A stretch of DNA of 40,929 bases from Pseudomonadota bacterium (GTDB taxonomy: Bacteria > Bdellovibrionota > Bacteriovoracia > Bacteriovoracales > Bacteriovoracaceae): positions 1-40,929 of the forward strand of contig JAIYDC010000112.1 in NCBI GenBank assembly GCA_027487685.1, written 5' to 3'. Below, piece by piece: positions 1,990-18,868 of the stretch. The notes under the pieces were generated by a model. The model worked only from the letters and a program-made list of their open reading frames with translations, ran no database searches and was not told where the DNA came from. The first letter of the stretch is position 1. Each line of letters starts with the position of its first letter. The translations under genes and the position numbers were made by a program.

Positions 1990-2691
1990 TTAAACGAATC
2001 TCGCCTCGGGCCCATAGACCCACTTGTGCTGCTGGCCGATCACCCGAAACGGAAGACCAAAGTTTTCATTCAGCTTTACAACCATTTGAAACCTGTTCAT
2101 GGGAAAGGGTTCCCCAGGTTCAAAACAGGGAGTCAGGCACCACGGAGGGACCGTAAGACCGGAGGCCTTCACGAAATGAAGGGCGTCGTAGGTCGCCTCA
2201 AAATCTTTTTTATCGGATATTACTGCTTTTATCTGCGCCTTCGAACCATAGGCCTCAACGAACTTTAAGAGCAGGTCTTTTGAAAACTTAACCGTCGTTG
2301 ACGGGGTCTTGTAGTCATAAGAAATAAAGTCAACCATGTCGAAGACTTCCGGCACAAGGCGGGTACCAGCGGCCTCAATGTTCACGTAATAATCGCGGCG
2401 TTTGAGCTCGCTAAGGAGCTCAATCAAAGATGGAACATGAGAGGGATGAAGTGGATCACCACCGGTGACGGATACGCGCTTGATGACATTTTGAGAGAGA
2501 GTTTCGATCTCTTCTATAACTTCATCCAGAGAACGCGTATAGGAAGGGTCAAAGTCCCAGGTTTCTTTAGTGTCGCAGTTTACACAACCCACGTGACACC
2601 CCTGGAAGCGCACGAAGATCTGGGGGATTCCGATGTGGATTCCTTCGCCTTCAGTTGCGCGGTAAATGGAGTTTATCAAGAGGGTCTTCAT
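1990..2691 (-). CDS. queE: 7-carboxy-7-deazaguanine synthase (radical SAM)
   Basis: QueE converts 6-carboxy-tetrahydropterin to 7-carboxy-7-deazaguanine, a radical-SAM ring contraction in the cytoplasmic pathway to preQ1 and queuosine. The 233-residue length is normal. Diagnostic parts are the N-terminal INSIYRATEGEG, then the QueE-type cluster motif C32-x3-C36-x2-C39 (CHVGCVNCD) and the SAM-contacting VTGGDP at about 96-101. The C-terminus ends in QQHKWVYGPEARFV, a QueE-like end. The gene is monocistronic or followed by the exported protein downstream. tgt, the enzyme that inserts preQ1 into tRNA, lies 12 kb away; queC, queD and queF are not in the window. Confidence 0.93.
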   Translation of the reverse strand: MKTLLINSIYRATEGEGIHIGIPQIFVRFQGCHVGCVNCDTKETWDFDPSYTRSLDEVIEEIETLSQNVIKRVSVTGGDPLHPSHVPSLIELLSELKRRDYYVNIEAAGTRLVPEVFDMVDFISYDYKTPSTTVKFSKDLLLKFVEAYGSKAQIKAVISDKKDFEATYDALHFVKASGLTVPPWCLTPCFEPGEPFPMNRFQMVVKLNENFGLPFRVIGQQHKWVYGPEARFV

Positions 2692-15044: not shown

Positions 15045-15114
15045 TCAACTCCTTTACTGGAAACGCAGACGGTTCGCCGTCTTGAAAACAACTTCGCCCA
15101 AAGGATTTTCTACG

Positions 15115-16245
15115 ATGAACGTTCGTTCGGAAGTAAACCAACATTTTAAATTCAAAGTTCAGCACGTTGACAAGCACTGTGGCGCCCGGGCCGGCATCAT
15201 CGAAACTCCTCATGGGCCCATCGAAACTCCGGTCTTTATGCCGGTCGGAACCCACGGTGCGATCAAGGCGCTCCAGCCTAAGGAGCTGGTCGATCTTTCC
15301 ATTGAGATTCTACTCTCTAATACCTACCACCTTCATCTCACACCGGGCTCAGAACTCATCGCGAAGGCGGGAGGACTGCACAAGTTCATGGGTTGGGACA
15401 GGGCGATCCTCACCGACTCCGGGGGCTTTCAGGTTTTCTCACTCCAGAAAAACTCAATCACGGAGGAGGGAGCAAACTTTAAAGGGGCCAAGGGAGAAAA
15501 CGTCCTCCTGACACCTGAGATCTCGATTCAAGTTCAGCAGAACCTCGGGTCCGATATTATGATGGCGTTTGATGAATGCATCCCATTCCCGGCCACAGAA
15601 AAGTATGTGGAGACTTCAATTGCACGCACCCACCGCTGGCTCGACCGCTGTGTCGATGCGTGGAAAAATCCCCAGCAGGCACTCTTCGGTATCGTCCAGG
15701 GTGGCGTCTACGAGAAGTACCGGAAGATCTGCATCGAAGAAGTCACAAAACGTGACCTTCCTGGCTACGCCATAGGAGGCGTCTCCGTCGGAGAGGGCCC
15801 TGAGCACATGGAGCAAATCGTGCGCACCACGGCACCGCTGATGCCGGTCAATAAGCCCCGGTATGTCATGGGAGTGGGAATGCCCGAAGATCTTCTGATG
15901 ATCTGGGAACACGGCATCGATATGAGCGATTGCATCATTCCGACAAAGTTCGGACGCGGAGGAACGCTCTTCACGAACCGTGGCAAAATCCGGATCGAGC
16001 ACAAAAATTACCGCCGGGACTTTTTTCCCATTGAGCCAAACCTCAAAGACTACGTTAATACGAACTTTACGCGGGCGTACATCAAACACCTCTTCGACTC
16101 AAATGAGATCCTGGGCCAGATCCTGGCCACGGCCCACAATATTTCGTTCTATAAGTCGATGGCAACGCGCGCCCGGGAGGCAATCTTTGAAGACCGCTTC
16201 CTGGAGTTTAAGAAGCAGTTCCTTGAGGGATATAAGCGCGACTAA
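15115..16245 (+). CDS. tgt: tRNA-guanine transglycosylase lacking cysteine zinc ligands
   Basis: Tgt swaps guanine 34 of certain tRNAs for preQ1 in queuosine synthesis. The 376-residue protein keeps the catalytic Asp101 (LTDSGGFQ), the nucleophile Asp272 (SDCIIPTKFGR), the bacterial Cys in FDECIPFP and the GGVSVGE loop. The C-terminal C-x-C-x2-C zinc motif is gone: the three Cys positions are Leu310, Asp312 and Asn315, while the fourth ligand His341 (TAHN) remains at the normal spacing of 26 residues. The zinc site is therefore absent or altered. The flanking TRAYIKH...EILGQ matches the family well, so this is not a frameshift. Start ATG 15115 has AAGGA at 15101-15105. Confidence 0.93.
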   Translation: MNVRSEVNQHFKFKVQHVDKHCGARAGIIETPHGPIETPVFMPVGTHGAIKALQPKELVDLSIEILLSNTYHLHLTPGSELIAKAGGLHKFMGWDRAILTDSGGFQVFSLQKNSITEEGANFKGAKGENVLLTPEISIQVQQNLGSDIMMAFDECIPFPATEKYVETSIARTHRWLDRCVDAWKNPQQALFGIVQGGVYEKYRKICIEEVTKRDLPGYAIGGVSVGEGPEHMEQIVRTTAPLMPVNKPRYVMGVGMPEDLLMIWEHGIDMSDCIIPTKFGRGGTLFTNRGKIRIEHKNYRRDFFPIEPNLKDYVNTNFTRAYIKHLFDSNEILGQILATAHNISFYKSMATRAREAIFEDRFLEFKKQFLEGYKRD

Positions 16246-16300: not shown

Positions 16301-18868
16301 CTAACGGAGTTTCTCTGTGATAATACGCTGCTGGAGGGCAGAACGGTTCTGCGCCAGCCGTGATTCAATCGCCCCTCGGCTGATGTTAAGCCTTTGAATG
16401 ACCGGATTACTTAAAGTTTCAGTAATCATACTTCTCTCAGCGATTGGCCAACGACTTAGGAAACAAGCATCACGCGATCGGCGGTTGATGAGTCGATTAA
16501 TGATATTAGTGTTTGGGAATTGCCGGAGGCATTCGTCAGCGATTCGATGACCGTACTCAAGCATTAACCCATCCAGATTGGCAACCGCCCGTTCACGTAG
16601 CTGGCCCTGAGAGCTATCCAGCCAGGCCCCGAATTCTCCTGCGGAGACAATGTTGTGGCACGCCACCCCTTCAATGAATTGCCCGAACACTGTTGCAGGC
16701 AGGTTATAAAGAAGTGTCATCCCGATAACCTTAAAACCTTGCACCTTACAGTCATTCAAGATTTGCTGGGAGTCGACGACGTTTTTAACCCACGAAAGGT
16801 CTGCCAAGAGTTTGCGACGTGTCTCTCCCTGATCTTGCTGGAGGAACTGAGCAGCGGTTTGAATCTCTATCACTTTCGCGTCGTCGTAGAGTTGACGCCA
16901 GATGCGCACGAAGTGTGGACGGACTTCGGCGGTAAGGAACTTTTCCTCAGAAGCACTCTCTACCCGTCTTTCATCGACCCTGAATGCTCTAATGGTCGTC
17001 AAAACTGCTTCAGGAAGAGCGGCATTAAGACAGTTAAAGAAAGAGCTTATGAGGTAACCGTCCCCCACAGTGAAGGCCCGCCCGGTTGGTGACGCCGTAT
17101 CGCTATGAGAAATGGCAAGACAGCTATTCCAGCTCTCTCCTGCTGATACTCGGATCTGCTCGAGGTTATCCTGAACAAAGGTCTGATACAGCTTGACCGT
17201 ATCTTCCCGGATGGTTTCATAGGGATGGGCATTCGTGTACATACGGAGGAGTTCCTGAGCTTCGACTTCCGGAAGACCTAGAGGCCCAAGTCGCTCGAGG
17301 GTACGCTTGTGGAGTTCTTCGGCGTAGCAACTACTCTCGTTAGGTGATTGATAACAAGTAAGATAGGCCGTACGCGCGAGGGTCGGATTATTGATGTCTT
17401 GCATGAATTCCTGGAGCCGCCCTAAATACTGAGGATCCTCCTTACCCTGAACGAGGTGCCGCTCAAACGAGGTCTTCAGGTGGTCTTTCACAAGAGCATT
17501 CCAACTGTCGCGATTTCCGCCGGTCGCGAGAGTATCACATCCCTGGGCAGTCGTAATGGCCACCTTAGCTCGAAGTTCAGCGCTGATCTGAGAGGCGCGT
17601 TCAGAAATGCACCCTAGAACATTCGCCGTCACATTCGTCGAAAAATCTCCTCGTCGGAAGTACTGAGAGCGCCCAGATGCCCCGGGTCTGGCGCAGTCTG
17701 CGACGGCCTTCAAGACCGCCTCAGAAATTTCACTCGCATTCTCTTGAATCCAACTGGACATCAAGGCAGGCACAGTAAACTCGCGATTTTGATAATAAGA
17801 ACGAGAAACAAAACCGTAATGATCGTTTGAGAGTCCCTCCTTAGCACGGGCCCCGTCAATCCTAAACACGGCCACCGACTCCGCAAAGTTTTCGGTAGGG
17901 TTTGTCTTAGCATAATCACTAACGACTTTCGCCCCAGGGGCCAGTTGCCAGCCTCGCTGGGGCTTTCCGGCGGCGTCAACGTACTCTGTCATAGCAAGCC
18001 CTGAAAGTGACACGTAATCCTGGCGGCTCGAGCGAAATCCTGAAATAGATCCTCGCCCCTCTTCCATGTCAACCTGATGACTGAGTTCATGGGTAATCGC
18101 CTGGTAGATCCATCCATTGTCCTGGGAATAGCTATCAAACGTCAGGCAGCCATCAGTGAGAGTAATAAAGCCACTAGAATAGGCCAGCCCGCACGCGCCT
18201 GCATTAGCACCCTCAAATAGCTCCCCACGAGGAATGCGCTGAATCTGAGTCAGGTAACGAAGGGTGGTGTGGGGGGCCTTTAACATGTAAGAGAGGCGCC
18301 AGAAGGCATAGAGCTCTTTTTCATCGAAGAGATAATTCGAAAACGGGATCGCCTTACCGTTGAACTCTCCAGCACTCATCGACGTCTGCATAGGAACTTT
18401 ATTGTCGGCAGCGAGAAGGTGTCCGAATTTCAGGTACCAAATATAGTGCACATAACCATTTACTTCATCTCCCTTGCCGTAAATGCGATTGAAGACGCAA
18501 GGCACGTCTGTGCAGGAAGAGAAGTCGATGGCCTGTGGATTAGTAAGATCACCGAGTTCACGTCCAAAAGATTTAAGAAAATTCCCCTGGGCCACCGGTA
18601 ACGTAGAGAGATCTATATGTTTCCAGCGGCCTGAAACAGGCCGCCCACGTGTAAATCGACGCTCAAGTTCACGGACCTCTGCTTTCAATGTTTCCACCGT
18701 GAAGACATCTTTCATACACTGGTTCTGGGAACTGGCCAGAGTCCGAAGCAGCGTTCGCTCTGAAGGCGCCGCTTTCTTGTCCCATAGGGTAATGAGAAGC
18801 TCCGGTGACTTCTTTGTACAGGCCCCGAGCATAAGTAGGGCAACCCAAAAAAGATTACTTCTTTTCAT
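16301..18868 (-). CDS. Large HExxH metalloprotease-like lipoprotein (ATLF-like)
   Basis: An 855-residue lipoprotein: signal peptide with lipobox LGAC and lipidated Cys17. A zinc-protease motif HELSHQVD is at residues 260-267 (His260, Glu261, His264), and about 60 residues later NPTENFAESVA supplies a likely third ligand (Glu326 or Glu330). The HExxHxxD...E-FAE arrangement is that of anthrax-lethal-factor-like/PPEP zincins, so a cell-surface endopeptidase is the best call. The C-terminal 500 residues are helical, rich in paired cysteines and not recognised. The gene overlaps the upstream 139-residue lipoprotein gene by 14 bases, so both are read from the same promoter region near 19300. Confidence 0.8.
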   Translation of the reverse strand: MKRSNLFWVALLMLGACTKKSPELLITLWDKKAAPSERTLLRTLASSQNQCMKDVFTVETLKAEVRELERRFTRGRPVSGRWKHIDLSTLPVAQGNFLKSFGRELGDLTNPQAIDFSSCTDVPCVFNRIYGKGDEVNGYVHYIWYLKFGHLLAADNKVPMQTSMSAGEFNGKAIPFSNYLFDEKELYAFWRLSYMLKAPHTTLRYLTQIQRIPRGELFEGANAGACGLAYSSGFITLTDGCLTFDSYSQDNGWIYQAITHELSHQVDMEEGRGSISGFRSSRQDYVSLSGLAMTEYVDAAGKPQRGWQLAPGAKVVSDYAKTNPTENFAESVAVFRIDGARAKEGLSNDHYGFVSRSYYQNREFTVPALMSSWIQENASEISEAVLKAVADCARPGASGRSQYFRRGDFSTNVTANVLGCISERASQISAELRAKVAITTAQGCDTLATGGNRDSWNALVKDHLKTSFERHLVQGKEDPQYLGRLQEFMQDINNPTLARTAYLTCYQSPNESSCYAEELHKRTLERLGPLGLPEVEAQELLRMYTNAHPYETIREDTVKLYQTFVQDNLEQIRVSAGESWNSCLAISHSDTASPTGRAFTVGDGYLISSFFNCLNAALPEAVLTTIRAFRVDERRVESASEEKFLTAEVRPHFVRIWRQLYDDAKVIEIQTAAQFLQQDQGETRRKLLADLSWVKNVVDSQQILNDCKVQGFKVIGMTLLYNLPATVFGQFIEGVACHNIVSAGEFGAWLDSSQGQLRERAVANLDGLMLEYGHRIADECLRQFPNTNIINRLINRRSRDACFLSRWPIAERSMITETLSNPVIQRLNISRGAIESRLAQNRSALQQRIITEKLR

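Follow-up and report, generated by a model that had tools for sequence, protein, structure and literature searches.

The window analysed here, a 40,929-nucleotide stretch of DNA from a host genome assembled in 149 contigs (98% complete), carries on its forward strand an open reading frame (positions 15115-16245) that begins with an ATG at 15115, ends with its stop codon at 16245 and encodes a 376-residue protein, TgtB. An in-frame TTG is present upstream at 15082, and the ATG start agrees with the aligned orthologs. TgtB scores 468.7 bits against the NCBIfam equivalog model for tRNA-guanine transglycosylase (Tgt), TIGR00430 (cut-off 306.75), and 480.3 against Pfam PF01702 (cut-off 26.3); these values exceed the curated cut-offs and bear out the initial annotation of the gene as a Tgt. 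Judged by sequence and modelled fold, TgtB is a Tgt homolog, of the Tgt2 paralog type, yet it lacks the canonical zinc site. The nearest named relatives are draft genomes of the Bacteriovoracaceae (Bdellovibrionota). Next to tgtB, a gene on the reverse strand (16301-18868) encodes an 855-residue lipoprotein-like protein with a HELSHQ metallopeptidase motif and a weak match to Peptidase_M90, so that a fast-evolving gene adjoins a highly conserved one.

In canonical Tgt, zinc clamps the loop preceding the dimer-interface helix to the helix that carries the zinc-binding histidine. Alignment with solved Tgt structures sets the zinc motif DSECHCAVC opposite EPNLKDYVN in TgtB, placing Leu310 (16042-16044, forward strand, as are all codons given here), Asp312 (16048-16050) and Asn315 (16057-16059) at the positions of the Zymomonas mobilis zinc ligands C318, C320 and C323, and the same three residues again occupy the C-x-C-x2-C positions when TgtB is aligned to the Escherichia coli enzyme. 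The fourth ligand position (Z. mobilis H349) is retained as His341 (16135-16137), which is invariant in 102 of 102 sequences (alignment A3). The structural site of three cysteines and a histidine is therefore reduced in TgtB to the histidine, exactly as had been read from the DNA alone, with correct numbering and spacing.

Active-site residues have fared differently from the zinc cysteines. The alignment identifies Asp101 (15415-15417) with catalytic D102 of the Z. mobilis enzyme, Asp272 (15928-15930) with its nucleophile D280, and Cys155 (15577-15579) with C158 of the preQ1-type base pocket, in agreement with the earlier claim that both aspartates and the pocket cysteine are kept. Asp101 and Asp272 are invariant among aligned TgtB sequences. 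The preQ1-type pocket (D156, C158, Q203, G230, L231 and V233 in Z. mobilis) is present in the alignment as D153, C155, Q195, G222 and V225, the conservative replacement of L231 by valine being the sole departure. Moreover, the aromatic hot spot of the dimer interface, as defined in PMC5395182, corresponds to F91, F318, Y322 and H325 in TgtB (F92, W326, Y330 and H333 in Z. mobilis), a correspondence that refers to residue identities only. Across TgtB there is little or no variation in the catalytic pair, the pocket, the hot spot or His341, and by this measure the protein is not degenerated apart from its zinc loop. A subfamily-specific stretch, DCIIPTKFGRGG (15928-15963; canonical DCVLPTRNARNG), begins at the nucleophile, and the subfamily reads DMSDCIIPTKFxRGG near this residue against canonical DMFDCVLPTRNARNG. 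Together with the L231 replacement, these differences suggest altered RNA recognition in TgtB; the reaction of canonical bacterial Tgt is the replacement of G34 by preQ1 in GUN tRNAs.

A structure model built from 102 diverse sequences (pLDDT 92) has the TIM-barrel fold and superimposes on Z. mobilis Tgt with TM scores of 0.94-0.95; because the underlying alignment is mostly of sequences that keep the cysteines (C-plus), it describes the overall fold and is a weak guide to the shape of a zinc-free loop. In the model built only from 29 relatives of the C-minus type, residues 274-336 have pLDDT values below 50.

When the motif was read in orthologs throughout the family, the L-x-D-Y-V-N loop was found in 38 genomes spread over about 11 genera of the Bacteriovoracaceae, with asparagine replacing Asp312 in one of them (L132). 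Four further genomes have V/I-x-C-Y-A-N, in which cysteines 1 and 3 are gone and cysteine 2 is retained, and one has L-N-A-Y-P-D. About 35 other TgtB proteins of the family retain C-x-C-x2-C, and every sampled Tgt from outside the family (mostly Firmicutes, Geobacter and other Bdellovibrionota) has all three cysteines and the histidine. Asp312 and Asn315 are each present in 25 of 25 aligned members of the L-x-D-Y-V-N clade, and codons within the loop differ synonymously across genomes while the protein is unchanged. Pairwise dN/dS values for TgtB lie between 0.01 and 0.045, similar to those for the paralog TgtA, and are rough since several dS values are near saturation. TgtB is under strong purifying selection. 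In synteny comparisons no neighbouring gene is as well conserved as tgtB, whose product shows 90-94% identity within its own genus against mostly 32-82% for adjacent genes. Nine relatives of Tgt were also seen in a viral collection.

The host genome contains three Tgt genes, of which the window gene is one. TgtA (contig C22) has an intact CxCxxC motif, and queA is found about 1.2 kb away on that contig; the gene neighbourhood and canonical residues of TgtA make it the probable housekeeping Tgt. TgtC (L003:1441-3477; G000:C145) is a 678-residue protein in which a Tgt domain with intact zinc cysteines is followed by a C-terminal MnmC2-like methyltransferase domain (PF05430), and in which the TRNARNG motif reads NQYGQRG. 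This fusion of a wobble-base Tgt with a wobble-uridine-type methyltransferase is odd, and Tgt open frames of similar length are also present in other Bdellovibrionota families. QueF is encoded in the host, a QueG-like match falls under its family cut-off, and the window itself contains a QueE-like radical SAM protein (7-carboxy-7-deazaguanine synthase; 1990-2691, reverse strand) that does not reach the curated cut-off of any QueE model. Taken with TgtA and queA, these matches make the queuosine pathway look largely present. The initial annotation was thus right to describe a Tgt without zinc cysteines but overlooked that this is a second, subfamily-specific paralog beside a canonical TgtA. Because TgtA, near queA, can supply queuosine, finding the modification in tRNA would be no test of TgtB.

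In the paralog tree TgtB clusters with second copies of the Geobacter type and of one other Bdellovibrionota family (f4), with support of 100/97, while TgtA lies apart among other Bdellovibrionota Tgt sequences. TgtB occurs in most of the Bacteriovoracaceae, and the B-type enzymes of Trichlorobacter and Geobacter (L153, L154) and of family f4 (L057, L062, L136) are its relatives and belong to the same subfamily. The window protein is about 66-76% identical to C-plus TgtB orthologs in the Bacteriovoracaceae and about 50-57% identical to the Geobacter and f4 proteins, all of which, unlike it, keep the three cysteines. In Trichlorobacter thiogenes (L153) both types are encoded, about 4 kb from each other: the canonical gene adjoins queA and yajC/secD, and the second is of the B type with its cysteines retained. 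Given that the TgtB clade includes the Geobacter and f4 copies and that both types occur in Trichlorobacter, the paralog predates the loss of the cysteines; the roughly 35 family members with the full set of ligands show that the loss is derived.

Trees inferred after removal of the motif columns require four changes for the loss, on a poorly resolved backbone. The approximately unbiased (AU) test does not reject a single clade of all C-minus sequences (p 0.47), and constraining the L-x-D-Y-V-N sequences to one clade gives a better likelihood than the free tree (p 0.61). On these two results strictly independent repeated losses are not upheld; between one and four occasions are possible, and V/I-x-C-Y-A-N may represent an intermediate stage. 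The L-x-D-Y-V-N clade is separated from C-plus TgtB only at positions 76, 113, 310, 312, 314 and 315, so that outside the loop C-minus and C-plus proteins differ only at 76 (T/S) and 113 (N/K).

We consider it likely that TgtB is a folded and working zinc-free Tgt paralog in which the loop replaces the metal, base exchange is normal, and the target or role is unlike that of TgtA. On this model, one large section of the Bacteriovoracaceae lost the structural zinc site, whose place was taken by the fixed L-x-D-Y-V-N loop. Leu310 and Val314 would pack in the space formerly taken by the cysteines and the metal, and Asp312 and Asn315 would hydrogen-bond with the retained His341, thereby doing the job of the metal. 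Base exchange would most likely follow the normal mechanism, in which Asp272 carries the covalent intermediate, Asp101 serves as acid/base and the pocket is preQ1-sized. The sequence itself, its conservation, the selection on it, the subfamily and the retained active site are established by the data, and the zinc-free state, the hydrogen-bonded replacement, the activity and the different target are inferred as likely. Zinc is reported to be required for activity in E. coli Tgt (PMC9508795, citing Chong et al. 1995), and its loss could therefore impair TgtB; PMC6165067 also counts the zinc site among the elements of the tRNA-binding scaffold. The presence of His341 in every C-minus sequence read also counts against a zinc-free protein, as a residual metal site would fit this observation too.

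The initial annotation had left the choice between a zinc-free Tgt and a rebuilt metal site. In the latter, zinc or another metal would be bound by Asp312, Asn315 and His341, possibly helped by water or an acidic side chain close by, and both the invariance of His341 and the presence of Asp312 and Asn315 in all 25 aligned members of the clade are compatible with such a site. Four observations favour the zinc-free alternative. The first ligand position is always hydrophobic (Leu, Val or Ile) in C-minus loops; the second varies among D, N, C and A, with Cys or Ala seen in the sister groups of C-minus type and Asn in L132; the third is N or D, asparagine being a poor zinc ligand; and comparison of the C-minus and C-plus alignments reveals no cysteine or histidine gained elsewhere in TgtB as a compensating ligand. 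Asp95 is commoner in C-minus TgtB but is present in a quarter of C-plus sequences as well. A rebuilt site therefore strikes us as unlikely. Slightly less probable still is that TgtB serves as a non-catalytic helper subunit of TgtA, in the manner of QTRT2 with QTRT1 in eukaryotes. Two paralogs do coexist in one genome, and the conserved hot-spot residues make a heterodimer sterically plausible, but TgtB is the opposite of QTRT2 in that both aspartates and most pocket residues are invariant.

It is improbable that TgtB is a spare copy for times of zinc scarcity, like the C-minus ribosomal proteins. A C-plus TgtA does coexist with the C-minus TgtB, and the host's own genus has only C-minus L31 (loci L246-L266), families f2, f4 and f5 having C-plus L31; the existence of C-plus TgtB orthologs, however, makes the paralog older than the loss, L36 (L270-L287) stays C-plus, and a search for simple palindromes in seven upstream regions found no zinc-operator-like one common to them. 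Genome-wide zinc avoidance can be rejected because the C-minus L31 stands beside a C-plus L36 and a TgtA with intact cysteines. A decaying gene or a sequencing or assembly error, for which nothing speaks except the loss of a usually conserved motif, has a negligible chance of being correct, given that dozens of genomes assembled independently of one another have the loop, that the frames are open and that dN/dS is about 0.02. Sequencing error, frameshift and pseudogene are thereby ruled out; the initial annotation had already discounted a frameshift, and cysteines in close relatives, which it had named as the sign of an error, are seen only in more distant orthologs, the close relatives sharing the loop.

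Returning to a zinc-free TgtB, a more specific and more speculative proposal is that it is a natural transglycosylase with its own target other than the wobble G34 of queuosine tRNAs. If so, predatory bacteria would contain a Tgt without metal and a deazaguanine modification that has gone unrecognised. Bacterial and eukaryotic Tgt proteins, non-catalytic QTRT2 included, conserve the zinc ligands, and the C-minus TgtB clade departs from this pattern with its active site intact and under strong selection, so that a part deemed essential in Tgt appears dispensable in nature. The clade offers a natural experiment on the role of zinc, with the V-x-C-Y-A-N proteins as possible stepwise intermediates and the C-plus orthologs as controls, and highlights a second subfamily whose members present models label merely as Tgt. 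In the open-access literature neither a Tgt lacking zinc nor the TgtB subfamily was found to be described.

Compared with the canonical enzymes of E. coli and Z. mobilis (bacterial Tgt, TIGR00430), TgtB has the same fold, length and catalytic aspartate pair, the same Asp/Cys/Gln/Gly pocket, the same dimer hot-spot positions and the same zinc-site histidine, but it lacks CxCxxC, has valine for L231, serine for the phenylalanine preceding the nucleophile and TKFxRGG for TRNARNG, and forms a separate clade. Eukaryotic QTRT2 is likewise a divergent Tgt paralog alongside a catalytic one. It has lost both catalytic aspartates and kept its zinc (PMC6165067; PMC4425180), the zinc residues themselves being retained (PMC4425180), and TgtB, with both aspartates present, shows the reverse pattern. 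TgtB also resembles the C-plus/C-minus pairs of ribosomal proteins such as L31, in which zinc cysteines are replaced in an otherwise conserved protein; unlike in those pairs, the C-minus form of TgtB arose within an already distinct paralog.
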